Source of the DNA: a virus
Reading direction: 5' to 3' (one strand)
Virus record (IMG/VR): IMGVR_UViG_3300046011_006646
Location: 1-64,000 of that record
Length of the DNA stretch: 64,000 bases
The translations under genes were made by a program, and so were the position numbers. Below are positions 6,778-30,008 of the stretch, piece after piece (position 1 is the stretch's first letter; every line of letters begins with the position of its first letter). Under the pieces are notes generated by a model. That model worked only from the letters and a program-made list of their open reading frames with translations. It was not told the origin of the DNA and searched no databases.

Positions 6778-9700
6778 ATGGCAGATAAAAGAATAACCGA
6801 CTTACCTTTAATATTATCTGGTGATATATCAACACAAGATGTATTACCAATAGTAGATGTCAATCTAGACATTACAAATAAAATTGAGGTAGATCAATTA
6901 AAATCATATATATTAACAGGTGTTAATGATTATTATGTTACTGGTGGTACCTATTCTAATGGAACAATAACATTAGGGAGACAAAATGGTTCTTTATCAA
7001 TTAGCGGTTTATACACTGGATCAACAGATGTTTTTGTAACTGGTGGTACCTATGATAACACAACTGGAACATTAACTTTAAAAGATAATAACGGAACGTC
7101 ATTTGGTGTAACTGGATTTACAACTGGTGGTACTGGGACTTCTTTATATGAAGTTGGTTCTGGAACTGACTCAACACAAAGGGTTGGTGTTAATAATGTT
7201 GCAATCGGTAATTGTTCTGCTGTTTTAGCTGGATCCGGAAACACTGTAATATCAGAATTTTCTTTTATTGGTGGAGGTTATAATAATACTGCTGGTTTTA
7301 GTGGTGGTGTTAATTTTGTTTATAATGAAACATTTACAGGTAATATACCTTCATCAGGATTTTACGGTTCAATTCCACCATCATCAACACTTTCCGGTCT
7401 TGGTTCTGGTTCAACTTTTTCATTTTATTTTTCAACTCAAACAACTTTAAGTAATGTTTATGTTGACAATCAAGGTAGTGGATATGTTAGTGGTGATACA
7501 TTAACATTTAACGGTTCAAATTTTGGTGGTGTAACACCTGCCGATAATGTTACAGTTCAAATCAACACATTAGGTGGTTCAAACATCGTTATTGGTGGTG
7601 GTCAAGGAAATACTGCAAATAGAGACTCATCAACAATTAGTGGTGGTTATATAAATAAAAGTAACGCAAACTGCTCAACAATCGGTGGTGGTTGTCGTAA
7701 CATTATTTCAAATGATTCTTGTTACTCAACAATTAGTGGTGGTAGAAGAAATACCGGATACGGTTGTTACGGAGTAATTAGTGGTGGTCGTTGTAATGAA
7801 ACTGGTGCTTATGGTACAATAACTGGAACATTTAATCAAGTGTATACCGGTGGTACTTTAAATGGAACTTTTTCTGGTGGTTATAACCCAACATCAACGA
7901 CATCTGGTTATGGATTTGATGCTTCTTTTGGTTTTGTTTTTAATTTTGGTACTTTATCTAGTGTTAATATTCTTGGTGGTGGTAATCGATATATTGGAAA
8001 TGATACTTTATTTTTTAATGGTAATATATTTCCTGGTGGAACAACTGGTATTGATGATGTAACATTTCAAGTTAGTACATCAATAAATAACTATGCAACA
8101 GTAGCTGGTGGATGTTGTAATACTGCATCTGGTGAATACTCAACAATTAGTGGTGGGTATGAAAATACAGTATCCGGTGATTATTCAACTATTGGTGGGG
8201 GTTCTTGTAACACAATTAATACTAATTCGTGCTATTCAACTATTGGTGGTGGTGATGATAATACTATCCTTCAAGGTGATGTTGCAACAATCAGTGGTGG
8301 TGAAAATAATACGATAAGTGGTGCTTATTCATTTATTGGTGGTGGTTATAATAATATAATAACAAGTTCTGATGCAACAATTGGTGGTGGTTGTAATAAC
8401 ACTGCAAGTGGTTACAAATCATTTATTGGTGGTGGAGAAAATAACGTTTCTGGACGAAATAATTTTGTTAGTGGAATAAATAGTTCTGTATATACTGGTG
8501 GTACTTTAAATAATACTTACGGTGGTATCTCACCAACATCAACATCAAGTGGTACTGGATCTGGGGTATTATTTAGTTTTGATTTTGTTCTTGGTGTATT
8601 ACAAACCATCCAAATACAAAACGGAGGTTCTGGTTATTCTAATGGTGAAACACTATATTTTAACGGTGGATTATTTGGTGGTGGTTCATCTCCTTTAGAT
8701 GATGTTTGGTTAAACATCCAAACAGAAAATAGCACACATACAACCGTAAGTGGCGGCTATTGTAACACATCAAGTGGGGATTACTCAACCGTAAGTGGTG
8801 GATATAGAAACACATCAAGTTGTTATAGTTCAACAGTAAGTGGAGGTATTAATAACAAATCAAGTGGTAATTCTTCAACCGTAGGAGGTGGTCTTGAAAA
8901 TACATCAAGTTGTTGTTATTCAACAGTAAGTGGGGGACGTAGAAATACATCAAGTGGTTATCATTCAACCGTAAGTGGTGGATACCGTAATACATCAAGT
9001 GGTCAATATTCAACCGTAAGTGGCGGACAATTTAACACATCAAGTGGTAATTATTCATTTGTTGGTGGTGGACAATGTAACGCGTCAAACTCTATTAACT
9101 CAACCGTAAGTGGTGGATTTTGTAATACAACAAGTGGAACTTACTCAACAATAGGTGGAGGTAATAATAATAAGTCTAGTGGTGGTTATTCAACACTAAG
9201 TGGTGGTCAAAATAATGTTGCCGGTGGTACACATTCATTTATTGGTAGTGGTTTTGGTAACGTTTCAGGTGTTAATGGATTTGTTACTGGTGTTACAGGT
9301 TTTGTATATACTGGAGGAACATTTAATAGTACATTCACCGGTGTTAGTCCAACTTCAACAAGTAGTGGATTAGGATCCAATGCGTTTTTTAACTTTAGTT
9401 TCCTTGGTGGTGTATTACAAAGTGTTACAGTACAATCAGCAGGATCTGATTATGTAAACGGAGATATACTATATTTTAATGCCGCTTCATTTTTTAGTAC
9501 ATCACCTCTTAATGATGTTTGGATAACAATATCAAGTGCTAGTAATTCATTTACAACAGTAGTTGGTGGTAGTCAAAACACATCAAGTGGATATCTATCA
9601 ATTGTTGGTGCTGGTTATCAAAATACATCAAGTGGTTGTTATTCATTTATTGGTGGTGGATGGTGTAACACAACGGTAGGTGATTGCTCAATGATACTTG

Positions 9701-9936
9701 GTGGTTATGCAAATAAATCTATCGGTACAAGAAGTGCTGTTGTGGGTGGTCAGAATATTGTAGCAACAGAAGATGATATGACATATATGCCAAGTGCGAA
9801 CATCCAATCAACCGGATATATTTATTTTGGAGACGTTAACACAAATGGTTCTTGGAGAATGAGTATATCTGGCGCAACATTTATAATTGAAAAAAGAGTC
9901 GGAGGTGTTTGGGTTGTGTCCGGAACATTCGTATAA
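6778..9936 (+). CDS. Giant tail fibre with YadA-head-type repeats (fibre 1)
   Basis: 1052 aa. The N-terminus (MADKRITDLPLIL, then PIVDV and LKSYI) matches the starts of the fibres at 27546 and 30009 and is probably the tail-attachment part. After LYEVGSGTDSTQR come dozens of ~14-residue units of the form NTSSGxYSTVSGG, the pattern of trimeric autotransporter (YadA) head repeats, so a trimeric beta-solenoid shaft is expected. Four divergent copies of a ~75-residue Ser/Gly-rich beta domain interrupt the shaft (about 7300-7590, 7815-8090, 8450-8730, 9258-9540). The C-terminus (GSWRMSISGATFIIEKR) looks like a small cap or receptor-binding tip. Very Ser/Thr-rich, hence a good glycosylation substrate. 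Confidence 0.82.
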   Translation: MADKRITDLPLILSGDISTQDVLPIVDVNLDITNKIEVDQLKSYILTGVNDYYVTGGTYSNGTITLGRQNGSLSISGLYTGSTDVFVTGGTYDNTTGTLTLKDNNGTSFGVTGFTTGGTGTSLYEVGSGTDSTQRVGVNNVAIGNCSAVLAGSGNTVISEFSFIGGGYNNTAGFSGGVNFVYNETFTGNIPSSGFYGSIPPSSTLSGLGSGSTFSFYFSTQTTLSNVYVDNQGSGYVSGDTLTFNGSNFGGVTPADNVTVQINTLGGSNIVIGGGQGNTANRDSSTISGGYINKSNANCSTIGGGCRNIISNDSCYSTISGGRRNTGYGCYGVISGGRCNETGAYGTITGTFNQVYTGGTLNGTFSGGYNPTSTTSGYGFDASFGFVFNFGTLSSVNILGGGNRYIGNDTLFFNGNIFPGGTTGIDDVTFQVSTSINNYATVAGGCCNTASGEYSTISGGYENTVSGDYSTIGGGSCNTINTNSCYSTIGGGDDNTILQGDVATISGGENNTISGAYSFIGGGYNNIITSSDATIGGGCNNTASGYKSFIGGGENNVSGRNNFVSGINSSVYTGGTLNNTYGGISPTSTSSGTGSGVLFSFDFVLGVLQTIQIQNGGSGYSNGETLYFNGGLFGGGSSPLDDVWLNIQTENSTHTTVSGGYCNTSSGDYSTVSGGYRNTSSCYSSTVSGGINNKSSGNSSTVGGGLENTSSCCYSTVSGGRRNTSSGYHSTVSGGYRNTSSGQYSTVSGGQFNTSSGNYSFVGGGQCNASNSINSTVSGGFCNTTSGTYSTIGGGNNNKSSGGYSTLSGGQNNVAGGTHSFIGSGFGNVSGVNGFVTGVTGFVYTGGTFNSTFTGVSPTSTSSGLGSNAFFNFSFLGGVLQSVTVQSAGSDYVNGDILYFNAASFFSTSPLNDVWITISSASNSFTTVVGGSQNTSSGYLSIVGAGYQNTSSGCYSFIGGGWCNTTVGDCSMILGGYANKSIGTRSAVVGGQNIVATEDDMTYMPSANIQSTGYIYFGDVNTNGSWRMSISGATFIIEKRVGGVWVVSGTFV

Positions 9937-9961
9937 ATAAAATAAAAAAATAAAATAAAAA

Positions 9962-12900
9962 ATGGGATTTAATACAGACATATTAAGTGCAACAACAATA
10001 AGTGGTGGAACATTCTATGGTGATGGTTCCGGATTAGTTGATAACACAATTACCGAAATTATAAATTCACCAACACAGAATCCACTTAATGTTAACACAA
10101 GTAATGATTATTTACCAATTACTGGTAATGACCAATATCAAGATGAAGCAAGTAACTATATTTCTTGGACAAATGGGTCAAATAATGGGACAGGATTTAA
10201 TCCTTGGACCATAACTACACAACCAAATACTGGTGTGTTTTTAGGTAATCCAGCGTCGGATGGTATGGGAACCGCCGGTATTGGAACAAACGCATTTGCT
10301 CTTTTTGCAACTGACGGATCAAATTATGTATCAACATCAAGAACATTTACATCTGGAATGAATGTTGGTGATGTATTTAGTTTTTATTGGGCGATAAATT
10401 TTGACGCAAATGGTGGTAATAAAGGTTTTGATTTAAAAGCTGGTGGTACAACAATTTTTAATGCTAATAATAATAATTCTGCAACAATAACATCAAACTT
10501 ATCTTCACCTAATAACATTATTGATAGTGGTTATGGTACAACACCAATGTTAGTTACTCTAACTAGAACAAGTGATATTCTTTATAATATAACAATAACA
10601 TCTAGAAGTGGTGGACCAACTTATTCTGCATCAATAAATTCACCATTGGTTGTCAATGAAATTAATTTTTATTGTGGTGCTCAAGGTGATGGTTTAGGAC
10701 AAAGGAATTTATTTTTTAATCAACTTTTAATTACAAAAACAACAGAGTTATTAAAAATAACAGTTGATGATTTGGGAAGTTTGTTTGGTGGTGGGTCTTT
10801 ATATGAAGTTGGTTCCGGTACAGACTCAACACAAAGATGTGGTGTTAATAATGTTGCTAGTGGCAATTGTTCTATTGTTGCAGGTGGTGATTATAACACA
10901 TCATTATCACCTTCTTCAGTTATAAGTGGTGGTAAATGTAATACAGCAGACTGTAATTTTTCAACCGTAAGTGGTGGTTATTCTAATAAAACTTATGGTG
11001 GTTGTTCATTTGTAGGTGGCGGTGTTCGTAACACAGCAAGTAATAACTTTTCAATAGTTGGTGGTGGTTGTATCAACACATCAAGTGGTAACTACTCAAC
11101 AATAAGTGGTGGTCGTCAAAATACATCAAGTGATTATTATTCAACCGTAAGTGGCGGTCGTCAAAATACATCAAGTAGTTGTTATTCAACTATAAGTGGT
11201 GGTCGTCAAAATACATCAAGTAGTTGTTATTCAACTATAAGTGGTGGTTATCGTAATGTTTCAGGAATAAACGGAACCGTAAGTGGTGTTTACAATCAAA
11301 CATATTTAGGTAGCACATTAAATGGAACATTTAATTCAATATCTCCATCATCAACATCTTCTGGTTATGGTAATGGTGCAATATTTAATTTTGTTTTTAA
11401 CACCGGAAGTTTATCTACTGTTACTCTTGTAACAATTGGTTCTGGATATGTAAACGGAAATTTATTAACCTTTGACGGAACTTTATTTGGTGGATCAAGT
11501 GGAACCGACGATGTTACATTAAATATTAATACACAAAACATAGGAAATAGTTCAACCGTAAGTGGAGGTCGTGGTAACACATCAATTGGTGGATATTCAA
11601 CCGTAAGTGGGGGTGTTGGTAACACATCAAGTGCGTGTTATTCAACAATAAGTGGTGGAGTAAATAACACATCAAGTTGTAATTATTCATTTGTTGGTGG
11701 AGGTCGCCAAAACACATCAAGTGGTGACCTTTCAACGATTGCCGGTGGTCTTCAAAACGCATCAAGTTGTAAATATTCAACCGTAAGTGGTGGTGCTTTT
11801 AATACATCAAGTAGTGATAATTCATTTATTGGTGGTGGACTTAGAAATACAACAAGTGGACAATATTCAACTATAAGTGGTGGTTATTGTAATGTTTCAG
11901 GAATAAATGGAATCGTAAGTAGTTTTTCTAATCAAACATATTTAGGAAGTACATTAAATGGAACATTTAATTCAATATCTCCATCATCAACATCTTCTGG
12001 TTATGGTAATGGTGCAACATTTAATTTTGTGTTTAACACAGGGAGTTTATCTACTGTTACTCTTGTAACAATTGGTTCTGGATATGTAAATGGAGATTTA
12101 TTAACCTTTGACGGAACTTTATTTGGCGGATCAAGTGGAACCGATGATGTCACTTTAACTATTAACACATCAACAATAGGAAATTGCTCAACCGTAAGTG
12201 GAGGTCGTGGTAACACATCAAGTGGAGATATATCAACCGTTGGTGGTGGTCGTTTTAACACATCAAGTGGAGATATATCAACCGTAAGTGGTGGTTGGCA
12301 AAACACGTCAAGTGGATATAACTCAACAATAAGTGGGGGATATTGTAATACATCAAGTGGATATAACTCAACCGTAAGTGGGGGATGTTGTAATACATCA
12401 AATGGTTGTGGATCATTTATTGGTGGTGGACGAAATAACACAATAAATTGTTTTTTTAATACAATTGGTGGTGGTCAAAATAACACATCAATTGGACAAC
12501 AGTCTATAATTGGTGGTGGTTCTAGTAATGTGGCATTTGGTAGTGCTTCATTTATCGGTGGTGGTAGTCAAAACACATCAAATGGCGGTGGGTCAACTAT
12601 TAGTGGTGGAGTCGCTAACACATCAAGTGGTGATTCTTCAACCGTAAGTGGTGGTCGTTTTAACACATCAATTGGCTGTTGCTCAACCGTAAGTGGTGGT
12701 TATTGTAATGTTTCAGGAATAAATGGAACCGTAAGTGGATTGTATAATCAAACATATTTAGGAAGCACATTAAATGGAACATTTAATTCAATATCTCCAT
12801 CATCAACATCTTCTGGTTATGGTAATGGTGCAACATTTAATTTTTTGTTTAACACAGGAAGTTTATCTACTGTTACTCTTGTAACAATTGGTTCTGGATA

Positions 12901-13555
12901 TGTAAACGGTGATCAATTATTATTTGATGGTACTTTATTTGGTGGATCAAGTGGAACCGATGATGTTACTTTAAATATTAATACACAAACAATAGGAAAT
13001 TGCTCAACAATAGGTGGAGGTCACCAAAACACATCAAACGGAAATTCTTCAACAGTAAGTGGTGGTTATAGAAACACATCAAGTGGTAATTACTCAACCG
13101 TAAGTGGTGGAGTAAATAACACATCAAGTGGAGATATATCAACCGTAAGTGGTGGAGTAAATAACACATCAAGTTGTAATTATTCATTTGTTGGTGGAGG
13201 TTATAATAACACATCAAGTGGTCAATATTCAACAATAAGTGGTGGAGGTTGTAACACATCAAGTAGTGATAATTCATTTATTGGTGGTGGACTTAGAAAT
13301 ACAACAAGTGGACAATATTCAACTATAAGTGGTGGATATCGTAACACGTCAATAAATGTTTATTCGGCAATACTTGGAGGACAAAGTAATACATCCCAAC
13401 ACGATTGTTCATTTATTGTTGGTAGCGGAATTTTTAGTACAGCGGCAAACACAACACACGTAAATTGTTTACACTTTAGTAATATACCAACAAGTTCAGC
13501 GGGTCTTGCTCCAGGAACAGTATGGAATAATGGTGGTGTATTAAACATAGCATAA
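9962..13555 (+). CDS. Giant tail fibre with YadA-head-type repeats (fibre 2)
   Basis: 1197 aa. Its N-terminus (MGFNTDILSATTISGGTFYG) differs from the other fibres. Residues ~60-260 form a lectin-like beta domain (SNYISWTNGSNNGTGFNPWT). After the shared LYEVGSGTDSTQR junction come YadA-head-type NTSSG/STVSGG repeats, broken by three nearly identical copies of the inserted Ser/Gly-rich domain (11254-11545, 11891-12182, 12707-12995). The protein ends in a short cap (GSGIFSTAANTTHVN). It starts 25 bases after fibre 1 and is probably co-transcribed; the two may form one composite fibre or alternative tips. Adhesion role inferred from repeat architecture. Confidence 0.82.
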   Translation: MGFNTDILSATTISGGTFYGDGSGLVDNTITEIINSPTQNPLNVNTSNDYLPITGNDQYQDEASNYISWTNGSNNGTGFNPWTITTQPNTGVFLGNPASDGMGTAGIGTNAFALFATDGSNYVSTSRTFTSGMNVGDVFSFYWAINFDANGGNKGFDLKAGGTTIFNANNNNSATITSNLSSPNNIIDSGYGTTPMLVTLTRTSDILYNITITSRSGGPTYSASINSPLVVNEINFYCGAQGDGLGQRNLFFNQLLITKTTELLKITVDDLGSLFGGGSLYEVGSGTDSTQRCGVNNVASGNCSIVAGGDYNTSLSPSSVISGGKCNTADCNFSTVSGGYSNKTYGGCSFVGGGVRNTASNNFSIVGGGCINTSSGNYSTISGGRQNTSSDYYSTVSGGRQNTSSSCYSTISGGRQNTSSSCYSTISGGYRNVSGINGTVSGVYNQTYLGSTLNGTFNSISPSSTSSGYGNGAIFNFVFNTGSLSTVTLVTIGSGYVNGNLLTFDGTLFGGSSGTDDVTLNINTQNIGNSSTVSGGRGNTSIGGYSTVSGGVGNTSSACYSTISGGVNNTSSCNYSFVGGGRQNTSSGDLSTIAGGLQNASSCKYSTVSGGAFNTSSSDNSFIGGGLRNTTSGQYSTISGGYCNVSGINGIVSSFSNQTYLGSTLNGTFNSISPSSTSSGYGNGATFNFVFNTGSLSTVTLVTIGSGYVNGDLLTFDGTLFGGSSGTDDVTLTINTSTIGNCSTVSGGRGNTSSGDISTVGGGRFNTSSGDISTVSGGWQNTSSGYNSTISGGYCNTSSGYNSTVSGGCCNTSNGCGSFIGGGRNNTINCFFNTIGGGQNNTSIGQQSIIGGGSSNVAFGSASFIGGGSQNTSNGGGSTISGGVANTSSGDSSTVSGGRFNTSIGCCSTVSGGYCNVSGINGTVSGLYNQTYLGSTLNGTFNSISPSSTSSGYGNGATFNFLFNTGSLSTVTLVTIGSGYVNGDQLLFDGTLFGGSSGTDDVTLNINTQTIGNCSTIGGGHQNTSNGNSSTVSGGYRNTSSGNYSTVSGGVNNTSSGDISTVSGGVNNTSSCNYSFVGGGYNNTSSGQYSTISGGGCNTSSSDNSFIGGGLRNTTSGQYSTISGGYRNTSINVYSAILGGQSNTSQHDCSFIVGSGIFSTAANTTHVNCLHFSNIPTSSAGLAPGTVWNNGGVLNIA
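11254..11545 (+). repeat. Inserted fibre domain, near-identical copy A
   Basis: About 290 bases starting at NVSGINGTVSG and ending at DDVTLNINTQ. It is very similar at the nucleotide level to copies at 11891, 12707 and 31866. Confidence 0.8.
11891..12182 (+). repeat. Inserted fibre domain, near-identical copy B
   Basis: Same ~290-base unit as copy A with scattered, mostly silent differences. Confidence 0.8.
12707..12995 (+). repeat. Inserted fibre domain, near-identical copy C
   Basis: Third copy within the same gene. Differences from copies A and B cluster near the end (GDQLLFDG in place of GDLLTFDG). Confidence 0.8.
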
Positions 13556-13572
13556 AATTAAATAAATTTAAA

Positions 13573-14094
13573 ATGAAAAAAGTATTTAAAGATTTTTTAA
13601 ACAAGTATTATAAAGAAAGTTTAGTCAGAAAAAAAGATAAAAATCAAAAAGATTTTGGGTCAAAAGTTAATGATTGTATAGTACAAGTCTACAATAAAAA
13701 TTCTGATAAACAAATAACAAGTAAGGACGTTATTTTACCGTCAGGTTGTTACTCAATGATGTTAGAAACTGAAGATGAAAATGTATTTACAAAATGTTTG
13801 TCTATTTTACCAAATATGAACGATATAATTGTGAGTCAAATTAAAACTTGTATAAAAGGTCAAAACGTTACTTGTGTTAAAGGTGTTGGTTTTACAATAG
13901 AAAAAGCTGGTGATATAATATATACGGATTGTTGTGGTCAAACTAATGCAAATTTTTACAATGAAAATAAATATTTTCTTGATGTTTGTATAAAGAGTGG
14001 TTCACTTTTACCTTATGATAAAAAGGGTAAACCGGCTAGCATTATTAAAATAGAATATGAAAATCAAAAATGTATTTGTGATAGTAAACAATAA
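13573..14094 (+). CDS. Hypothetical Cys-containing protein downstream of fibre 2
   Basis: 173 aa. The N-terminal 30 residues are a Lys-rich helix; the rest is predicted beta-rich, with about ten cysteines (for example TDCCGQ and KCICD near the end). It begins 17 bases after fibre 2 and continues the same transcript. No family recognised. A fibre chaperone, cap or small structural protein would suit the position, but nothing in the sequence proves it. Confidence 0.6.
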   Translation: MKKVFKDFLNKYYKESLVRKKDKNQKDFGSKVNDCIVQVYNKNSDKQITSKDVILPSGCYSMMLETEDENVFTKCLSILPNMNDIIVSQIKTCIKGQNVTCVKGVGFTIEKAGDIIYTDCCGQTNANFYNENKYFLDVCIKSGSLLPYDKKGKPASIIKIEYENQKCICDSKQ

Positions 14095-14365: not shown

Positions 14366-15106
14366 ATGTTTGTAACAGTATGTAATAAAGAATACCTCAT
14401 AGGATTTGAGGTAATGTTAAAATCTTTAATAGATAATAATCCAAGAGTTGTTACTGATAATTTACCATTTGTAATTATTACAAACGATTTAAACCCTGAA
14501 GATTTAGTCACCTCAAGAACAATTTATAATAATATACATATAAAAAGATTTGACGAATCAAAATATTCACAAATAGAGGAATTAAAAAAACAACAAATGG
14601 CATTTGGTGATTATACCAAATATGAAATTTTTTCTTTGACCGAATTTAAAAAAATTATATTTTTAGACTCCGATACAATAATATTAGGAAACATTGATTA
14701 CCTTATTGATTTTAAAGAACCATTTGGTTGTGTGAGAGAATTATTTATTGATCAATATAACACCGGTGTTATGGTAATCGAAAATAAATATTTAAATCCA
14801 AAAATTACAGAAGATTTAATCAATCTAACAAACATTTATGGTATTACAGAACATTTAGATCAGGACATAATAAATAATTATTTTATTGATGTTATCACGC
14901 CAATTCCATTGGAATACAACTATCTTAAAATATATTCAAAACAAATTTTTCAAAACACCGGACTTCCGGAGTATATTAAAATAATTCATTATGTTGTTAA
15001 AAAACCTTGGCAACAAAAACCATTGGTAATATTAGAAGAAGGAACACTATGGACCGAAAGATATTGGTTTGAGTATTATTCAAAAGTACTAAAGTTAAAA
15101 ATATAA
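14366..15106 (+). CDS. Glycosyltransferase family 8-like (glycogenin-type)
   Basis: 246 aa, GT-A fold. The metal- and nucleotide-sugar-binding DxD is D101-S-D103 in IIFLDSDTIILGNID. Further GT8 hallmarks are the first strand MFVTVCNKEYLIGFEVMLKS, the acceptor-side YNTGVMVIENK, HLDQDIIN, and the C-terminal HYVVKKPWQ with the His-x-Lys-Pro-Trp element. It would transfer a sugar, retaining its configuration, from a UDP-sugar to a glycan or protein. First gene of a six-gene run whose neighbours overlap or are a few bases apart. Acceptor unknown; the adjacent Ser/Thr-rich fibres are the favoured inference. Confidence 0.82.
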   Translation: MFVTVCNKEYLIGFEVMLKSLIDNNPRVVTDNLPFVIITNDLNPEDLVTSRTIYNNIHIKRFDESKYSQIEELKKQQMAFGDYTKYEIFSLTEFKKIIFLDSDTIILGNIDYLIDFKEPFGCVRELFIDQYNTGVMVIENKYLNPKITEDLINLTNIYGITEHLDQDIINNYFIDVITPIPLEYNYLKIYSKQIFQNTGLPEYIKIIHYVVKKPWQQKPLVILEEGTLWTERYWFEYYSKVLKLKI

Positions 15107-16014
15107 TGGTTAAAAGACATTACGGACAACACGAGCTATTGGAGTATGTTGAATTAGATAAAGACGCTCAAACATTAGAAGGAAAAGTAATTTTAATGCA
15201 CTTTGATTCTTTTTGTCTTGGCGATACAATTTGTTTTTCCTCTTTTATTGACGCTTTTCTTGATTATCACAAACCAAAAAAAGTAATTATCTCAACATTT
15301 TTTATACACTTATTCAAATCAACGGATGAAAGATATGAATTTATTAACGCAAATCAAAAATTAAAATTAACTGTTGATAAATTAATTGATGTTGGTTACG
15401 ATAAAAATAGTTTAGAAGATACAAAAGGTGGTATGATGTGGGCAACAAAAAGAACAATGATGTTACCACAAGAAACAAAACCTAGAAAATGTCCGGTTAT
15501 TCCATATGAAAGAAAAATAATCCCAAATAAAATAACAATTGCACCAGAGTCATTAAAAAAAATTGCTCAGTGGAACCATTTTGGAAATTACGGTTGGCAA
15601 TCATTGGTAAATGAAATTGTAAATTCTGGATTTGTGGTTTCAAATGTTTCATACGAAAATACAATGAATTTACAAAATGTAACTGGTTTTCACGGTCACG
15701 ATGATATTAGGGTTGCATTAAATGAAATTTTATCATCACGAGTATTTGTGGGATTATCTTCTGGACTTGCTTGGCTTGCTTGGGCTTACGGTGTTCCGGT
15801 TGTTATGATTTCTGGCTTTACAAAAGAACATAATGAATTTAATTGTTATAGAGTTACAAATAAACTTTCTTGTAATGGTTGTTTTAATTTATTTCAAAAT
15901 ATACAATCAACTTGTCCTTTATTTTTGGGTACCGATAGAGAAAATGAGTGTCATAAATCAATTACACCACAAATGGTTATTGACAAAATAAACGAAGCTC
16001 TTAAATTTAATTAA
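15106..16014 (+). CDS. TibC/BAHT-like autotransporter O-heptosyltransferase (GT9-related)
   Basis: 302 aa. The C-terminal half carries the signature of the bacterial autotransporter heptosyltransferase family (TibC, AAH). It has GWQSLVNEI, VSYENT, the donor-site block RVFVGLSSGLAWLAWAYGVP followed by VVMISGFTKEHNEFN, a four-cysteine metal finger (C256, C259, C270, C282) and SITPQMVIDKI. In known members the finger binds iron and the enzyme adds heptose to Ser in strand-loop-strand repeats of adhesins such as TibA and AIDA-I. It is shorter at the N-terminus than TibC. The start overlaps the GT8 stop by one base. Its location beside adhesin-type phage fibres suggests they are the acceptors; the actual donor sugar is not known. 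Confidence 0.8.
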   Translation: MVKRHYGQHELLEYVELDKDAQTLEGKVILMHFDSFCLGDTICFSSFIDAFLDYHKPKKVIISTFFIHLFKSTDERYEFINANQKLKLTVDKLIDVGYDKNSLEDTKGGMMWATKRTMMLPQETKPRKCPVIPYERKIIPNKITIAPESLKKIAQWNHFGNYGWQSLVNEIVNSGFVVSNVSYENTMNLQNVTGFHGHDDIRVALNEILSSRVFVGLSSGLAWLAWAYGVPVVMISGFTKEHNEFNCYRVTNKLSCNGCFNLFQNIQSTCPLFLGTDRENECHKSITPQMVIDKINEALKFN

Positions 16015-16019
16015 AAATT

Positions 16020-16904
16020 ATGGAAAAAAAATATAGTGTATTTCACATAGAGGGTGGTCTTGGTAAACATGTTTTAGCAACAGCAGTTGCAAGATGTATT
16101 AAAAATAATCATCCGGATAGAGAACTAATTGTTGTTTGTGCTTATCCAGAAATTTATCTTAATTTAGATTTTGTTAATCGTGTGTATAGATTAGGTAACA
16201 CACCTTATTTTTATGACGATTATATAAATGAAAAAGATAGTTTAATTTTCAAACACGAACCGTACTTTACTGAAGATCATATTCATAAAAAATTATCATT
16301 AATCCAAAACTGGTGTAAATTATTTAACCTTGAGTATAGTAATGAAAAACCAGAACTTGTTTTTAATTTAAGACAACAACAAATTGGTATTAATAAATGG
16401 CAAAGACAAAGACCAATTATGGTTATTCAAACAAACGGTGGACCATTAAATGACCAACCGTATCCGTATTCTTGGACAAGAGATATACCTATGGACACTG
16501 CTCAACAAATTGTAAATTCATTTAAAGACTATTATCATATAATTCAAATTTGTAGACACGAATCAAATGCTCTTCAAGGTGTTGAGGTAATTAAAGAACC
16601 GATGTCAAATATGGAATTATTTTCACTTCTTTTATTTTCACAAAAAAGATTGTTAATTGATTCTTGTTTACAACATGCCGCAGCAGCGCTTGGTTTACAA
16701 TCAACAGTTCTTTGGGTTGGTACATCACCAAAAGTATTTGGTTATAATTTACATAATAATATTGTAGCACAACTACCAAACACAGTCAAACTTCCGGATA
16801 GTTATTTATTTGACTATAACTTTAATGGAATGGTTCACGAATGTCCGTTATTTGACACAAACATCTTTAACATAAACGAAATAATAGAATCACTAAAAAA
16901 TTAA
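16020..16904 (+). CDS. GT9-like glycosyltransferase (GT-B fold)
   Basis: 294 aa. The N-terminus FHIEGGLGKHVLATAVARCI is the glycine-rich first loop of heptosyltransferase-like GT-B enzymes, and the region LLIDSCLQHAAAALGLQSTVLWVGTSP (about residues 215-240) matches the GT9 donor-binding segment (D-S-x-x-x-H-A-A-A). It lacks the four-cysteine finger of the preceding gene. Five bases separate it from the upstream stop, so both enzymes are probably made together. Likely role: a second transfer step on the same glycan. Donor and acceptor unknown. Confidence 0.72.
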   Translation: MEKKYSVFHIEGGLGKHVLATAVARCIKNNHPDRELIVVCAYPEIYLNLDFVNRVYRLGNTPYFYDDYINEKDSLIFKHEPYFTEDHIHKKLSLIQNWCKLFNLEYSNEKPELVFNLRQQQIGINKWQRQRPIMVIQTNGGPLNDQPYPYSWTRDIPMDTAQQIVNSFKDYYHIIQICRHESNALQGVEVIKEPMSNMELFSLLLFSQKRLLIDSCLQHAAAALGLQSTVLWVGTSPKVFGYNLHNNIVAQLPNTVKLPDSYLFDYNFNGMVHECPLFDTNIFNINEIIESLKN

Positions 16905-16905
16905 A

Positions 16906-17724
16906 ATGGTACAAAAAATTTTCTTTCAAAGCTCACTACCTAGAGCAGGGTCTACATTACTACAAAATGTAATGGGTCAAAATCCAGATTTTTACGTTAC
17001 ACCAACATCAGGTGTATTAGAACTTGTATATGCCGCAAGAGCAAATTACACTTCATCACCAGAATTTAAAGCACAAGATACTCAACTAATGAGAGAAGGG
17101 TTTTTAAATTTTTGTAATCAAGGTGTTCAAGGTTTTTTTAATGCTGTAACGGATAAACCCTATGTTTTAGATAAAAGTAGGGGTTGGGGTGTTCATTACG
17201 GATTTTTAAATTCATTTTATCCTAACCCAAAAGTAATTTGTATGGTTAGAGATTTAAGAGGAATTTTTGCATCTATGGAAAAAAACTTTAGAAAAAATCA
17301 ACATATGGATTCTGGAATTGTAAATCACGCACAAATGCAAGGAACAACAACAGAAAAAAGAATTGATATTTGGGCACAGTCACAACCGGTAGGATTAGCA
17401 ATAGAAAGGTTACATCAAATTTTTAAAGAAGGTAACAATCAAAAAATGTTATTTGTTAAGTTTGAGGATTTTTCATCAAACCCAAAAAAAGAAATGGAAC
17501 GTATCTATCAATACTTGGAATTACCTTATTATGAACATGATTTTAATAATGTTCAACAAATTACACAAGAAGATGACAGTGTGTATGGAATTTATGGTGA
17601 CCATAAAATAAAAAGTAAAATAGAACCATTAAAACCAGATTATAAAGAAGTTTTGGGTGTTAACGCATCTAACTGGGTTAAATCTAATTATCAATGGTTT
17701 TATGATCAATTTGGATATTTTTGA
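16906..17724 (+). CDS. PAPS-dependent sulfotransferase
   Basis: 272 aa. The 5'-phosphosulfate loop is SLPRAGSTLLQNVM (residues ~10-23, R13-x-G-S-T). The 3'-phosphate site is CMVRDLRGIFASM (R115 and S123). FEDF and the following helix fit the family fold. It would move a sulfuryl group from PAPS to a hydroxyl, most likely on a carbohydrate. One base separates it from the GT9-like gene and three from APS kinase, which makes PAPS, so a dedicated sulfation step is well supported by context. There is no membrane anchor, so it acts in the host cytoplasm before virion release. The acceptor is not shown by the sequence. Confidence 0.85.
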   Translation: MVQKIFFQSSLPRAGSTLLQNVMGQNPDFYVTPTSGVLELVYAARANYTSSPEFKAQDTQLMREGFLNFCNQGVQGFFNAVTDKPYVLDKSRGWGVHYGFLNSFYPNPKVICMVRDLRGIFASMEKNFRKNQHMDSGIVNHAQMQGTTTEKRIDIWAQSQPVGLAIERLHQIFKEGNNQKMLFVKFEDFSSNPKKEMERIYQYLELPYYEHDFNNVQQITQEDDSVYGIYGDHKIKSKIEPLKPDYKEVLGVNASNWVKSNYQWFYDQFGYF

Positions 17725-17727
17725 TTT

Positions 17728-18183
17728 ATGAAAGAGAAAAAAATATATTGGTTTACCGGACAACCTGGTGCTGGAAAAACGGTGTTATCTTTAAGATTAA
17801 AAAAGTATTTAGAACAAGAATATGGACAAGAAGTATTCCATATTGATGGTGATGAGTTAAGAGTTTTATTTAAAAACATAAACTACGGTAGAGAAGGTCG
17901 TGAGGAAAATATAAAAAGAGCTCAAGATATTGCAAAATTTATTCACTCACAAGGTTATGATGTAATTGTTAGTTTAGTTGCACCATATAAAGAAATGAGG
18001 GAAAGTTTTAAGTATGATTTAAAAAATTTACTAGTTGAGTTTTATGTTCACACAACAGACATTAGAGGTAGAGAACATTTTCACACGGATGAATATGAAG
18101 GTCCTACAGAAAATTTTGTAGATATTGATACAACAAATGTTGATCCACAAATATCATTAAACGAAATAATCAAACACATATGA
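17728..18183 (+). CDS. cysC: Adenylylsulfate (APS) kinase
   Basis: 151 aa, slightly shorter than usual (~175-200). Walker A is GQPGAGKT (residues 11-18); HIDGDELR and the NYGREGREENIKRAQDIAKF block are typical of CysC, as is VSLVAPYKEMRE. The residues around the end of the usual Lys-Asp-x-Lys-Gly-Leu segment are missing or replaced (HTDEYEGPTENFVDI), as in other short members. It catalyses ATP + APS to ADP + PAPS, the donor for the sulfotransferase immediately upstream. APS must come from the host or another gene, since no CysD/CysN is in the window. Its TGA overlaps the next ATG by 4 bases. Confidence 0.85.
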   Translation: MKEKKIYWFTGQPGAGKTVLSLRLKKYLEQEYGQEVFHIDGDELRVLFKNINYGREGREENIKRAQDIAKFIHSQGYDVIVSLVAPYKEMRESFKYDLKNLLVEFYVHTTDIRGREHFHTDEYEGPTENFVDIDTTNVDPQISLNEIIKHI

Positions 18184-18632
18184 GTTGGGAAAAGAAAAAT
18201 TATGGGGGGGATCCAACAACAAATGAAAGTAAAAAATATGCAATTTTTATTGGCCGTTATCAACCACCACATTTTGGGCATTTAGAGTTATTTGAACAAA
18301 AACTAAAACAAGGAGTTCCAATTTTAATTATGGTTAGGGATATTGAACCAGATGAAAAAAATCCTTTTACAACAGAGCAAACAGTGTTTTTATTGGAAAA
18401 ATATTTTTCAAATAAAAAATTAGATGTTAAGGTTATGGTTATTCCTGATATTGAGTCGGTAAATTTTGGTCGTGGTGTTGGTTATGAGGTTAATGAATTT
18501 ATACCACCAAAAGACATTGGTGGGATTTCAGCAACTGGAATTAGAAATTCCATTAAAAATAAAGATGATTATTGGAAAAAAATGATAGACGAATCAATCC
18601 AAAACGATATTTTTAATTTTTTGACTAATTAA
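18180..18632 (+). CDS. HxGH nucleotidyltransferase (NMNAT/cytidylyltransferase-like)
   Basis: 150 aa. The N-terminal FIGRYQPPHFGHLELFEQ contains the T/HxGH-type nucleotide site, and GGISATGIRNSI is the C-terminal ISxTxIR element of NMN adenylyltransferase-like enzymes. The fold activates a phosphate-containing substrate by adding AMP or CMP. It overlaps the APS kinase gene by 4 bases, which points to the same pathway: making an activated sugar or a step near sulfate activation. A role in NAD synthesis is the main alternative. It is not a classical ATP sulfurylase. The last 39 bases overlap the end of the convergent endonuclease gene. Confidence 0.72.
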   Translation: MSWEKKNYGGDPTTNESKKYAIFIGRYQPPHFGHLELFEQKLKQGVPILIMVRDIEPDEKNPFTTEQTVFLLEKYFSNKKLDVKVMVIPDIESVNFGRGVGYEVNEFIPPKDIGGISATGIRNSIKNKDDYWKKMIDESIQNDIFNFLTN

Positions 18633-19448
18633 ACTATCAAACTCTGAAAAATTATTATCTTTTATTACAATATAATTATAAATTTTTTCAGATGTTTCTT
18701 TTTTAAGTTCATTAATTCTTTGGTTTTTTTGCCACATATATGATGATTTTATTTCTATTACAATATTGGTATTTTTAATTTTAAAATCCGAAAAATAATT
18801 GTGTGTTAAACCATTATCATCTACGTATTCAATTACCGGACCTCTTTCTAACATCGTAAACAGTCCAATTTTTTCACAGTATTTAATAAATTCTAACTCA
18901 TAAGTACTTTGATAATCAATTCCTTTATATTGTTTAATTATGGTTTTTCCCCATCTGTTTTGTGGTTTTAATATACCAGTTTTATACGCCTTTTTAATTG
19001 ACTCACTTAATTTTTTTTTAGTTTCTTCTGATCTTTTTGTACCCTTGTTTTTTTTAGCAATCTTTTTCCAAACTTGTTTATTAATATTATTTTGTTTTGT
19101 TGAGTCCCAGGTAAATGGATTACCACGTTCTTCTAACATCTTATTTCGTGCTTTAATAAAATTTTCATTTGGTTCTACACCATACATACCATTTCTATTA
19201 CCTTTATTCATACATTTAAAACAATAATCAATATTACCATTTATTCCACAAATTCTTTTTTCAAATGTGGCACCACAATCATCACATTTTATTTTTAATT
19301 TTATTCTTCTGTATGATGTTGTTTTCAATAACGACCAATTTATAAAAAAAGGTTTATTTATTTCTGGAGTAAAACCTAGTTTTGTTTCCCAAGTTTTAAG
19401 TTTTAATTTAGATTTAATTTTTATTTCTACCATTTCATTTAGTACCAT
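18594..19448 (-). CDS. Free-standing homing endonuclease-like protein (NUMOD3 plus PD-(D/E)xK-type nuclease)
   Basis: 284 aa. A zinc-ribbon-like pair (CDDCG ... CFKC) occupies ~55-80. A NUMOD3-type DNA-binding stretch (GTKRSEETKKKLSESIKKAY) follows at ~135-155. The C-terminus has a nuclease core: YELEFIKYCEKIG, then YFSDFKIKNTNIVIEIKSSY, fitting E...D...ExK. Oriented against every neighbour and overlapping the end of the nucleotidyltransferase gene by 39 bases, it looks like a mobile gene that settled inside the glycan cassette. It has its own TATTTAT motif 14 bases upstream. Class of nuclease (VSR/EDxHD-like) is a guess. Confidence 0.72.
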   Translation of the reverse strand: MVLNEMVEIKIKSKLKLKTWETKLGFTPEINKPFFINWSLLKTTSYRRIKLKIKCDDCGATFEKRICGINGNIDYCFKCMNKGNRNGMYGVEPNENFIKARNKMLEERGNPFTWDSTKQNNINKQVWKKIAKKNKGTKRSEETKKKLSESIKKAYKTGILKPQNRWGKTIIKQYKGIDYQSTYELEFIKYCEKIGLFTMLERGPVIEYVDDNGLTHNYFSDFKIKNTNIVIEIKSSYMWQKNQRINELKKETSEKIYNYIVIKDNNFSEFDSLISQKIKNIVLD

Positions 19449-19462
19449 AATCTTTTTTTATT

Positions 19463-19469
19463 ATAAATA
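19463..19469 (-). promoter_or_regulatory. Candidate late-promoter motif TATTTAT (leftward)
   Basis: TATTTAT on the minus strand, 14 bases before the endonuclease start at 19448. Confidence 0.45.
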
Positions 19470-19568
19470 CTACAAAATACAGATTAATACCAAGACAATT
19501 TGGTCACATTTAATTTTCTATTAATTTACATATAAATAATACATAATATTTTTATAAAAAAATGACTT

Positions 19569-20009
19569 ATGAAAACGCAGAGCAAAACATATCAAATTAG
19601 ATATAATACAATTTCAAAAAACGATACCGAAAGGTGGAGATTAATAGAAAATGGAAATGAAATTTTAGTTTCTGATATTATAATTGATGGTCATACGTAC
19701 ACAACAAAAGACTGGATACCGGAAATAAATGATTATAAGTGGCACATAAGTTGTGTTGGTTATTGTGTTGTTAAAAACAATATTGCATATATCACAACAA
19801 TAAAAGAAGAATCTGTTGTTATTAGACATATATTAAAAACACTAACATATAGATTTTTTGCAACAATTACAACAATTACAACAGCATTATTATTAGGTGC
19901 ATCAATTGAGGTTTCGTCATTAATTGGTTTAGGTGAATTACTAATAAAACCTATAATTTATTTTTTCCACGAACGAGTTTGGTATAAATTTATAAAAGTT
20001 AAAAAATAG
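19569..20009 (+). CDS. DUF2061 membrane protein with N-terminal phage domain
   Basis: 146 aa. Residues ~20-75 form a small beta domain (ERWRLIENGNEILVSDIIID). Residues ~88-143 are a DUF2061 domain: RHILKTLTYRFFATITT, a hydrophobic helix TTALLLGASIEVSSLIGLGE, then KPIIYFFHERVWYK with the conserved HERVW. DUF2061 proteins are small predicted membrane proteins. From memory they often sit beside sulfate-activation genes in Bacteroidota, which would fit the APS kinase and sulfotransferase nearby; I could not check this. Function unknown. Upstream is the AT-rich divergent region 19449-19568, which holds no further gene I can see. Confidence 0.72.
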   Translation: MKTQSKTYQIRYNTISKNDTERWRLIENGNEILVSDIIIDGHTYTTKDWIPEINDYKWHISCVGYCVVKNNIAYITTIKEESVVIRHILKTLTYRFFATITTITTALLLGASIEVSSLIGLGELLIKPIIYFFHERVWYKFIKVKK

Positions 20010-20041: not shown

Positions 20042-20461
20042 ATGAGTCAAAGTATTACAATAAATAGTGTTTTATATGATGGTGAGTTAGCAAGTATATT
20101 ATTCAAACCAGACAATTCTGACGATGTAATTAATCTTGGTCTTGTTGAGTTACCTTTTACATTTTATCCTAATTTATTAAGTCCACCAAGAGAAGTATAT
20201 GGTAGTTATACAATTTTGGTTCAAGGTTCAAGTTGTTCAAAAACATTAAATGTTCCAAGACCAACACCTACACCTACACCAACAGTTACTCCTACAAGGA
20301 CCCAAACACCAACACCCACACCAACTAATACACCAACACCATCTTTTGATCCGTGTAAAGTACCAACACCAACACCAACTAATACACCAACACCAACTAA
20401 TACACCAACAGTAACACCAACACCAACAGTTTCTTGTACAAATCCATGTGGTTGTTTTTAA
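20042..20461 (+). CDS. Mucin-like Thr/Pro-repeat structural protein
   Basis: 139 aa. Residues ~1-72 form a small beta domain ([20 protein letters not shown]). Residues ~74-128 are almost entirely Thr-Pro repeats with Asn and Val, and the end is SCTNPCGCF. No signal peptide. The extended Thr/Pro tail resembles the linkers in the adjacent 1193-aa adhesin and in the papain-fusion and sheath proteins. Such sequences are typical substrates of protein O-glycosyltransferases. Likely a minor virion or fibre-linker protein. Confidence 0.68.
20261..20429 (+). repeat. Long Thr-Pro-coding hexamer/nonamer microsatellite
   Basis: Repeated CCAACA and ACACCA-type units with interspersed AAT (Asn) codons. 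The array is in frame and likely length-variable. Confidence 0.8.
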
Positions 20462-20502
20462 CAACAACTTTATAATAAAGACAAATGTTTTATAATTAAT
20501 TA

Positions 20503-23500
20503 ATGCAACAAATAGAAATTACAGGAGTTACCGGAACAGGACCTTATCAAGTCGAAGTTTGTGATATAACAAACACAACTTGTGTTGTTGTAACTGGATC
20601 AACAATTATTCCGCCAACATATACTTTTGATGTTCCACCACCATTTGTTGGTACAAACTCTTTATTAATCAAAATTACAGATTCATTAGGTTGTGAGGTA
20701 TTCCAATACTACTCTTGTCCACCAACTCCCACACCAACACCAACTCCGACATTAACTCCAACACCTACACCAACATATCTTTGTTATTGTATTACAGCAA
20801 TTAACACAACAAATAATAATGGATATTTTAATTACATAGATTGTAATGGAAATTTACAATCATCTGTATTTGTTGCAAGTGGAACAACATATTATACTTG
20901 TGGGATTCACCCATCAAGTCAAATTAATGTAAAAACAACTGTTGGTGGGTTTTGTGATTCAAATCAGTCTTGTCCGACACCATCTTGTACTCCAACACCA
21001 ACAAATACACCAACACCAACACCAACACAAAAAGGTAGGTTTAAAGCGTTATATAGAACAACAAATACCTCATCTGGTTCATCTGGAGCAAGTCAATTAA
21101 GATTACCATTAGAATCAACTGGTAATTATAACTTTACGGTTTATTGGGGTGACGCGTCAAGTGATGTAATTACAGTATGGAATGATCCATTAACAACACA
21201 TACCTATGCAGCGCCTGGTGATTATCTTGTTGAGATTGATGGAACAATAGAAGGTTTTAGATTTGCAAATACCGGTGATAGGAAAAAGATATTAAGTGTT
21301 TCAGATTGGGGTATTTTAAAATTTGGAAACAACGGTGATTACTTTTATGGTTGCTCAAATTTGACATTAAATTCAGTTAATGATACTCCAGATGTTTCAT
21401 TAACAACAAATATGTCTCAAGCATTTAGGGAATGTTCATCACTTACATCATTTAATAATTTAAATTCTTGGAATATGTCCCAAGTAACTGATACATCATA
21501 TATGTTTGCAATATGCCCAACATTTAATCAAAACATTGGTTCTTGGGATGTATCGTCTGTTACAAATATGCAATCAATGTTTTATAATTGTTCTTTATTT
21601 AATCAAGATATTACAAACTGGAATGTATCAAATGTTGATGATATGTCGTATATGTTTTGTGAAGCGGCATTATTTGATCAACCAATAACCGGTTGGTCGG
21701 TATCTGCTGTAACAAATATGGCTGGAATGTTTTCTGATGCAATATCATTTGACCAAAACATCGGAACTTGGGATGTTTCAAATGTTAGTTTTATGAACAA
21801 TATGTTTGAGGGTGTTGTATTATCAACACAAAATTATGATTCAATATTATGTGGTTGGTCTAACTTACCAACACTACAATCAAACGTTGTCTTTGATGGT
21901 GGTAACTCTCAATATACAACTTCAGCAGTAACTTGCATTGTAACATTGTCGACATCACCATATGATTGGACAATACTAAATGGTGGTCAATCAAGATTTG
22001 AATCAACTTGGGATACAACATTAACCTCATTAGGTTCTTCATTAGGAAATCAAGTTATGTTACCTTTAGAATTAACAGGGATATACAACTTTTTTGTTGA
22101 TTGGGGTGATGGAAATTCGGATAATATTACGGTATGGAACGATCCGGCAACAACACATACATATGTGACATCAGGAATTTACACAATAAAAATATATGGG
22201 CAAATAGAAGGCTGGAGATTTAATAACACCGGTGATAGATTAAAACTGTTAAGCATTCAAAGCTGGGGGTCTGATTTCAGATTAGGTAATAATGGTTCAT
22301 ATTTTAATGGTTGTACTAATTTAGACTTAAGTGGTGTTTCAGATATTTTAGATTTACAAGGAACAACTACTTTATTTAGGACATTTAGAAACTGTGGTTC
22401 TTTAACAACTGTTTCTAATATGAATTTATGGGACACATCAAATGTCACAAATATGTCAGAAATGTTTATTAATTCATCATTTAATCAACCAATTGGAACT
22501 TGGGACACATCTTCTGTTACAGATATGAGTAGTACATTTTTTAATGCCGCATCATTTAACCAACCAATTGGAACTTGGGACACATCTTCTGTTACAACAA
22601 TGTTTCAAATGTTTGCTTTTGCAACATTATTTAACCAACCAATTGGAACTTGGGACACATCTTTTGTTCTAACTATGGGTGGTATGTTTGCCAACGCAAC
22701 ATCGTTTAATCAAAATCTTGGATCTTGGAACATAATATCTGTTACAGATATGAATGGTATGTTGAACAGTTGTGGAATGAGTTCAACAAACTACGATTCA
22801 ACATTATGTGGTTGGTCATTACTACCAACATTACAAACTGGGGTTTTATTAGGCGCTTTAGGTTTATTTTATTCACCAGCCGGTCTTACTTGTAGAAATA
22901 TATTAACCGGAACATATTCTTGGGTAATAACCGGTGACAACCCTTTAGTAGTAACACCGTTTGTCTCAAATTGGGACACAACTCAAACAAGTGGTGGTTC
23001 ATCATTAGCAAACCAAGTACAGTTACCATTAGATTTTAGTGGTACATATAACTTTACCGTAGATTGGGGTGATGGGTCACCAATTGATACAATAACGGTA
23101 TGGAATGATCCATTAACTTTACATACTTATGGTGTGTCTGGAACATATACAATAACAATTACAGGACAAATAGAAGGATTTAGATTTAATAATACTGGTG
23201 ATAGAGATAAATTATTAAATATTACAAGTTGGGGTCCTAATTTTAGATTAGGTAATAATAATAGTTATTTTTATGGTTGTACAAATTTAGATTTAAGTTT
23301 TGTTTCAGATATTTTGGATTTAACAGGTACAATATCAATGACTAATACTTTTAGAGATTGTACATCATTAACAACAGTAAATAATATGAACTTGTGGGAC
23401 ACATCTTCAATTGTAAGTATGTCTAGTATGTTTCGTAACGCAACATCATTTAATCAACCAATTGGAACCTGGGATACCTCTTCCGTTACAACTATGGGTA

Positions 23501-24084
23501 GTATGTTTAATAATGCAACATTATTTAACCAACCAATTGGTACTTGGATTACATCTTTAGTTACAAATATGACTCTTATGTTTGCTGGCGCAACATCATT
23601 TAACCAACCAATTGGAACCTGGGATGTATCTTCGGTTATAACTATAAATGCTATGTTTGATACTGCAATATCATTTAACCAACCAATTGGAACCTGGGAT
23701 GTGTCAAATATTACAGATATGAGCGGTATGTTTCAAAGTGCTACATCATTTAACCAACCAATTGGAACTTGGAATACATCGTTAGTTACAAATATGATTA
23801 GTATGTTTAATAATGCAACATTATTTAACCAACCAATTGGTACTTGGGACGTTTCATTAGTGACAAGTATGAATAATATGTTAGATAATTGTGGGTTAAG
23901 TCAAGCAAATTATGATAACTTACTTATAGGTTGGTCAATATTACCATCACTACAACTTGGTGTTACACTTGGTGCTTTAAATATACAATATACACAACCA
24001 CCAAGTGCTGTGGCTTTAGCTAGAAATACAGTTTTAATTGGAACTTATGGATGGACAATTGTTGGTGATATTCCGGTACCATAA
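20503..24084 (+). CDS. Large adhesin with PKD-like and BspA/DUF285 repeats in three blocks
   Basis: 1193 aa. An N-terminal beta domain is followed by two Thr-Pro linkers (~75-90 and ~165-180). Then come three homologous blocks of ~310-370 residues. Each starts with a PKD-like unit ([32 protein letters not shown]) and continues with ~25-residue BspA-like leucine-rich repeats of the type [20 protein letters not shown] (DUF285). BspA repeats mediate surface adhesion in Bacteroidota and other host-associated bacteria. Here the protein is probably a virion adhesin or fibre tip. The third block has the most repeats. Signs of tandem duplication are strong at both protein and DNA level. Confidence 0.8.
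20719..20775 (+). repeat. Thr-Pro-coding microsatellite, first linker of the BspA-like adhesin
   Basis: ACACCA/ACTCCA units in frame, coding for (T-P)n. Confidence 0.75.
20990..21029 (+). repeat. Thr-Pro-coding microsatellite, second linker of the BspA-like adhesin
   Basis: CCAACA units with one AAT codon, in frame, just before the first PKD-like block. Confidence 0.75.
21043..24070 (+). repeat. Three tandem ~1-kb blocks (PKD-like plus BspA repeats)
   Basis: Blocks begin near 21043, 22000 and 22965. Each contains WNDP-THTY and FRFNNTGDR-type landmarks, followed by [11 protein letters not shown]-type units that are nearly identical in DNA between blocks 2 and 3. Confidence 0.75.
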
Positions 24085-29972: not shown

Positions 29973-29986
29973 TTAAAACTAAAACA

Positions 29987-29993
29987 TATTTAT
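29987..29993 (+). promoter_or_regulatory. Candidate late-promoter motif TATTTAT
   Basis: TATTTAT then an A/T-only leader, 15 bases before the ATG at 30009. Confidence 0.5.
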
Positions 29994-30008
29994 AAATAAA
30001 AATAAAAA

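Follow-up and report, generated by a model that had tools for sequence, protein, structure and literature searches.

Gene linkage and gene displacement predict a compact ATP sulfurylase in a phage sulfation operon

Our comparisons of gene content, gene order and modelled structures suggest that a stretch of viral DNA (the first 64,000 nt of IMG/VR virus record IMGVR_UViG_3300046011_006646, which is 64,663 bases long; hereafter the window, to which all coordinates refer) carries a sulfation kit made up of a sulfotransferase (S) that uses 3'-phosphoadenosine 5'-phosphosulfate (PAPS), a short adenosine 5'-phosphosulfate (APS) kinase (K), a small HxGH adenylyltransferase (N) and a DUF2061 membrane protein. 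We give a probability of roughly 0.77 to the reading in which N acts as a compact ATP sulfurylase with no sequence relationship to Sat or CysDN, and in which K and N form a minimal PAPS synthase feeding S. The original prediction for this DNA had already taken K and S as a PAPS-making and PAPS-using arm, a view that the Pfam identities and the recurring gene order support. The most unusual part of the arm is N, whose role was missed there and whose function we predict from its linkage and from its displacement of known enzymes across genomes.

All five reading frames in this region lie where they had been placed and carry the motifs first described for them. On the plus strand, S (16906-17724, 272 aa; PF13469 1.5e-21, PF00685 1.7e-13) has its stop at 17724 and K (17728-18183, 151 aa) starts at 17728, a gap of 3 bases, and K in turn overlaps N (18180-18632, 150 aa, with the motif PPHFGH; PF01467 1e-6) by 4 bases (18180-18183). 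The DUF2061 gene (19569-20009, plus strand; PF09834 3.3e-14) follows after a mobile endonuclease gene on the minus strand (18594-19448; phrog_15137 1.2e-8), which stands outside the arm proper and had been suspected to be an insert. It is one: in alignment, three relatives (L002, L005 and L015) lack about 0.95 kb exactly at the N/DUF2061 junction, and in them N overlaps or abuts DUF2061, which directly follows it. S, K, N and DUF2061 are confirmed as one operon, interrupted by the endonuclease insert. K matches PF01583 (2.5e-20; 73.5 bits against a curated cut-off of 21.1) and APS kinases in the PDB (6e-15), and conserves the Walker A motif GQPGAGKT, IDGDELR, R58 and R91. Against the apsK equivalog TIGR00455, however, it reaches 70.1 of the 138.7 bits that the family's cut-off demands, and it is missing the FTGIDxPYExP loop of canonical CysC, which by alignment is present in the canonical kinases that pair with N elsewhere.

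The linkage of N to APS kinase recurs widely among viruses. Separate scans yielded 21 viral loci for K, 66 for N and 80 for S, and a profile scan for N gave 80, mostly new; after removal of near copies, 103 viral loci found through N were left. An APS kinase lies within 1 kb of N on the same strand in 94 of these (overlapping or abutting it in 65), DUF2061 lies within 1 kb in 68, and a recognised sulfotransferase lies within 5 kb in 37. Since the N scans used N's own motifs only, finding K next to N is an independent result. Close relatives keep the full order GT8-type glycosyltransferase gene, two further genes, S, K, N and DUF2061, and the survey of related phages found the gene set strongly conserved, its order repeated in dozens of viral contigs, far beyond chance. 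K and N are moreover a single polypeptide, kinase first (K::N), in phage loci L032-L034, L039/L130 and L085. Elsewhere the partners are exchanged: an N at 65-71% identity to that of the window pairs with a canonical CysC in L036, L040, L049 and L050, these kinases sharing only 23-26% identity with the window's K, and a sulfotransferase of another family (PF03567) separates K from N in L044 and L048 and is a near neighbour in L036 and L083. Chance adjacency is rejected, given how often the pairing recurs, that it is fused in either order and that its partners are swapped. As the sequence of N is kept while kinase type and sulfotransferase family vary, K-N, together with DUF2061, acts like a unit for PAPS supply that is joined to different sulfotransferases. 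Among large N-bearing virus records, PF13469 was found over cut-off in 17 of 27, as against 2 of 14 far larger reference genomes, and neither Sat nor CysD was found over cut-off in any of the 27. Two further genes, one upstream in L180 and a neighbour in L053, look like sulfotransferases by eye, have no Pfam sulfotransferase match and were left uncounted. Kinase-nucleotidyltransferase fusions of phrog_10255 in Xanthomonas and Stenotrophomonas phages (L169:3578-4324, L170:3590-4321) lie among DNA-metabolism genes with no sulfotransferase seen and have long branches; they were not counted as the same system and could represent another enzyme.

In bacterial and archaeal genomes, a scan turned up N in Bacteroidota, Dadabacteria, Nomurabacteria, Acidobacteria, Marinimicrobia, Omnitrophota, SAR11 and SAR86, and among archaea in marine group II and one haloarchaeon. 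Most of these cellular loci have an APS kinase adjoining or fused to N: K::N fusions occur in archaea, Acidobacteria and others, and the reverse order, N::K, occurs in Omnitrophota, where the L185 copy lies close to a PF13469 sulfotransferase. In Ferruginibacter (L182) a DUF2061::APS kinase fusion is followed by N and then by a sulfotransferase match below cut-off, and in haloarchaea the sulfotransferase gene adjoins K::N or is one gene off. The gene between the two in haloarchaeal locus L353 (1745-3465) is uncharacterised and 286 aa long, with argininosuccinate synthase following in some haloarchaea, and marine Bacteroidetes locus L177 has a small cytidylyltransferase-like gene (7597-7995) between cysC and N.

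N also stands in for known enzymes. Our Flavobacteriales sample was an even draw of 99 genomes, 46 of them with a true APS kinase, and CysD was found in 44 of the 46 (39 over the cut-off and five lower, some of these contig fragments or broken). The two genomes without it, G001 (a chosen centre) and G142 (drawn), are the two with a strong N and no Sat. N scores 236 bits in both, all other matches lying below 26, and the two of those that we inspected are CoaD-like. Across the 46 genomes the operon reads either cysC-cysD-cysN or cysC-N and never both, with N directly after cysC, in the position that cysD-cysN hold in most others. Five of 79 Halobacteriales genomes have a true APS kinase; four carry K::N without Sat or over-cut-off CysD, and the fifth has Sat adjoining the kinase and no N. 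N is absent from the other 74, which have no true APS kinase, and the scores (112-117 bits in the four carriers, at most 48 in all others, those being NadM-like matches that end near position 91) leave a gap by which N and NadM separate cleanly. With the two centre genomes excluded, 49 genomes have an APS kinase, and the four that lack a classical ATP sulfurylase are exactly those with N, which would be one arrangement in 211,876 if the genomes were independent, as the related haloarchaea are not. In a broader set of 23 N-bearing cellular genomes, Sat and CysD both went undetected in 20.

Among operons the most telling is one for assimilatory sulfate reduction in a SAR11-family genome (L357:3267-8404, the same as L226) that runs from a sirohydrochlorin chelatase-like gene through uroporphyrinogen methyltransferase, cysI, cysH, DUF2061 and K to N, with an assimilatory sulfite reductase at 707 bits (cut-off 457) and a phosphoadenylyl-sulfate reductase at 248 (cut-off 154). 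A search of this genome found no CysD, Sat or PF13469 sulfotransferase match, so that PAPS most likely feeds CysH here; the pathway cannot run without an ATP sulfurylase, for which the operon shows no candidate other than N. The SAR11 group is usually regarded as incapable of sulfate reduction. SAR11 and SAR86 repeatedly show K-N pairs (L191-L254), the SAR11-type kinase having NADEVR in place of DGDxxR, and the presence of PF13469 sulfotransferases in HTCC9565 and a SAR86 genome makes sulfation in SAR11 possible too.

What S modifies is a separate matter. S matches PF13469 at 78.1 bits against a cut-off of 27, and the residues first pointed out in it (R13-A-G-S-T, R115 and S123) are all present; apart from A14 they are invariant in 35 relatives, that is, at the PAPS-binding positions R13, G15, S16, T17, R115 and S123. 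Our leading guess for its acceptor is a sugar carried by a molecule of the virion or surface; the sulfated glycan first proposed, which would lend fibres or the cell surface a strong negative charge, is a candidate product. S is most constantly accompanied by a gene of the type at 16020-16904 in the window (plus strand; GT9-like by eye, phrog_8954 4.6e-7 of unknown function), which in 45 of 55 non-redundant loci lies no more than 1 kb away; this fits a glycan acceptor and speaks against a protein. Three upstream genes had been called glycosyltransferases: the first stands (14366-15106, plus strand; GT8 type, PF01501 5e-22; close relatives keep it upstream of S), and the other two, the 16020-16904 gene and a conserved neighbour at 15106-16014 (plus strand, putative, glycosyltransferase-like by eye only), have no Pfam match. 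The main rival, which we regard as rather unlikely and which concerns the acceptor only, being compatible with the role proposed for N, is protein sulfation by the arm, for instance on tyrosines of the repeat-rich tail proteins encoded nearby, to whose genes S often lies close. The best match of S among PDB sequences is TPST1, and its AlphaFold2 model (predicted local distance difference test, pLDDT, 90.4) is closest in fold to human tyrosylprotein sulfotransferase (TPST; Z 19.8), followed by a bacterial polyketide sulfotransferase (Z 16.4) and, clearly lower, heparan (carbohydrate 3-O-)sulfotransferase (14.5). The GEET segment of TPST, however, which holds the catalytic Glu, falls on TPT in S in a sequence alignment rather than a superposed structure.

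Several observations weigh against a sulfurylase role for N within such kits. No recognised sulfotransferase lies within 5 kb of N in 66 of the 103 viral loci, 10 of the 27 large records lack PF13469 over cut-off, and sulfotransferases without N are common. Phage loci L014 (4959-5851) and L125 (3523-4438) have K-DUF2061 without N, and the phage group L321-L330 has N-DUF2061 with no K nearby. Among cells, a Pelagibacter and an alphaproteobacterium carry Sat as well as N, and an N-bearing Omnitrophota genome carries CysDN-like genes; the genomes are mostly metagenome-assembled or single-amplified, which makes absences soft, and the Halobacteriales carriers are probably related to one another. 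In the L321-L330 group the N-DUF2061 pair adjoins carbamoyltransferase and UV-endonuclease-like genes, and L091 (6001-7034) has S-DUF2061 with neither K nor N; together with L014 and L125 this arrangement indicates that N or K-N can be lost. An alternative reading has N as an auxiliary factor, such as an APS-binding regulator or a kinase scaffold, with APS coming from the host's ATP sulfurylase: L014 and L125 retain K-DUF2061-S without N, and APS is made by most bacteria on their own account. Against this, the catalytic motifs of N are nearly always retained among 277 copies (HxGH in 275, GR-VGY in 272, S/A-T--R in 270), and N stands in place of cysD-cysN in flavobacteria and within a cysIH operon, in genomes in which no other ATP sulfurylase was found. 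We therefore think an auxiliary role improbable.

The family ties of N bear on a further alternative, in which K-N would salvage nucleotides, K as nicotinamide riboside kinase and N as nicotinamide mononucleotide (NMN) adenylyltransferase, and so rebuild NAD, for example against an NAD-depleting defence. Phages do carry NAD salvage genes, and the nearest named families of N are the NadM NMN adenylyltransferases. The fold in its confident AlphaFold2 model (pLDDT 90.6) is of the NMN/phosphopantetheine adenylyltransferase type, its structural neighbours being enzymes of both kinds at Z 13.5 to 12 (best 1f9a, Z 13.5, root-mean-square deviation 2.5 over 128 aligned residues). But N scores 35.1 bits against the 181.2 of the NadM equivalog TIGR01527, and in the profile alignment the match stops after PDI and picks up again at the S-A/T-x-x-R helix, which leaves out NadM positions of about 77-109, a middle of some 34 residues where N has about 9-24. 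Moreover Pfam and PDB comparisons identify K as an APS kinase, canonical CysC takes its place elsewhere, the partners of K-N are sulfotransferases, cysH, cysI and DUF2061, and the Halobacteriales with N retain a separate NadM-like gene. Kinase identity, partners and the missing NMN segment lead us to reject NAD salvage as very improbable. A phosphoramidate (Cj1415-like) pathway was also considered, and no partner gene of it was seen, although no search was aimed at it.

We return to N as a predicted ATP sulfurylase. PF01467 is its sole Pfam match, which places it outside Sat (PF01747) by sequence, and neither the CysD PP-loop nor the CysN GTPase matched it in Pfam or NCBI family searches. N may then work like an ATP sulfurylase without being a Sat; Sat is also absent from its best structural matches, which leaves room for distant kinship. 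Its own signature is RDIEPDEKNP and PDIESVNxGRGVGY, with G97-R98-G99-x-G101-Y102 and R53-D54 invariant, and its tree (118 columns), poorly resolved, mixes cell and virus copies with at least 10 changes between them. NMN and phosphopantetheine adenylyltransferases move AMP from ATP to a phosphate oxyanion, freeing pyrophosphate, and the same chemistry with sulfate as acceptor gives APS. In our proposal N would accordingly link sulfate to the AMP moiety of ATP, yielding APS and pyrophosphate, with H31 and H34 binding the triphosphate and R98 and R53 perhaps helping to hold sulfate. K would phosphorylate APS to PAPS, the two forming a minimal PAPS synthase that in some relatives is one chain, and S would transfer sulfate from PAPS to its acceptor, most likely a sugar that the adjoining glycosyltransferases would build on a molecule of the virion or host surface. 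Because APS formation is unfavourable, it is reasonable that the same operon or chain should couple it to K, and animal PAPS synthases likewise couple APS formation to the kinase.

DUF2061, whose gene product matches PF09834 at 53.5 bits against a cut-off of 23.1, had been tentatively tied to sulfate supply, and this suggestion gains ground. It is present at 12 of 40 flavobacterial APS kinase loci, in 11 of them directly adjoining cysC of cysC-cysD-cysN and in one about 2.4 kb off; in the Ferruginibacter fusion both domains exceed their Pfam cut-offs; and in the SAR11-family operon it lies between cysH and K. The fusion to APS kinase, together with the N-DUF2061 pairs without K, indicates that DUF2061 belongs to sulfate activation, where it might act at the membrane in sulfate entry or in anchoring the kinase.

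The arm is set among contractile-tail phage genes (tail sheath, tube, baseplate hub, DNA polymerase and helicase). Several paralogous tail-like proteins built of SGGxxNTSSG-type repeats are encoded in its flanks (6778-13555 and 27546-33014), and proline-threonine-rich proteins (20042-24084) flank it as well; both are candidate acceptors. A 173 aa gene of unknown family at 13573-14094 was seen, among the compared loci, only in the window and in the near-identical L001.

Two ATP sulfurylases without kinship to each other, Sat and CysDN, are described as the basis of sulfate activation (PMC6286981). We consider it likely that N is a third, non-homologous family, distributed over phages, Bacteroidota, Marinimicrobia, Omnitrophota, SAR11/SAR86, haloarchaea and marine group II archaea, that with K it makes up the smallest known PAPS synthase, and that it fills the missing sulfate activation step where CysDN and Sat are lacking. 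Our literature search, with subscription papers and preprints outside its scope, returned no NadM-like ATP sulfurylase, no K::N fusion and no DUF2061 in sulfate metabolism, and the four papers within that scope that name DUF2061 are, by their titles and abstracts, not about sulfate, so that as far as we found DUF2061 gains a pathway for the first time. If N is indeed a sulfurylase, it is about half the size of CysD (about 120-150 against about 300 aa), the count of organisms able to activate sulfate changes, with SAR11 lineages and haloarchaea included, 'NMN adenylyltransferase' annotations need correcting, and a small enzyme becomes available for PAPS production. Our data further suggest that many phages of aquatic habitats come equipped with a self-contained sulfation kit, a unit swapped between different sulfotransferases.

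Compared with known systems, a PAPS supply joined to a sulfotransferase is of a familiar kind, and it is probably the enzyme family N inside the arm that is new. Earlier papers already count phage cysC with the auxiliary genes of viruses, and cyanophages have annotated sulfotransferases, among them that of Synechococcus phage S-SCSM1, which belongs to the same family as S (27.6% identity) but has no annotated K, N or DUF2061 beside it, its record being without N. Similar to animal PAPSS1/2 and bacterial CysNC and Sat-CysC, K-N couples the activation of sulfate to the phosphorylation of APS within a single operon or chain, and most of its fusions begin with the kinase, as PAPSS does; unlike them, its sulfurylase half is a NadM-like domain of 120-150 aa and not a PF01747 Sat or CysN/CysD. 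With NadM (COG1056) N shares its fold and the motifs GRxQPxHxGH, KNPFT and S-A/G-T--R, yet it is without part of the middle, a segment that in NadM binds nicotinamide, and has instead the conserved PDIESVNxGRGVGY and sulfate-gene partners. Finally, as in the flavobacterial DUF2061-cysC-cysD-cysN operons, DUF2061 adjoins the APS kinase, but the phage has N where cysD-cysN stand.

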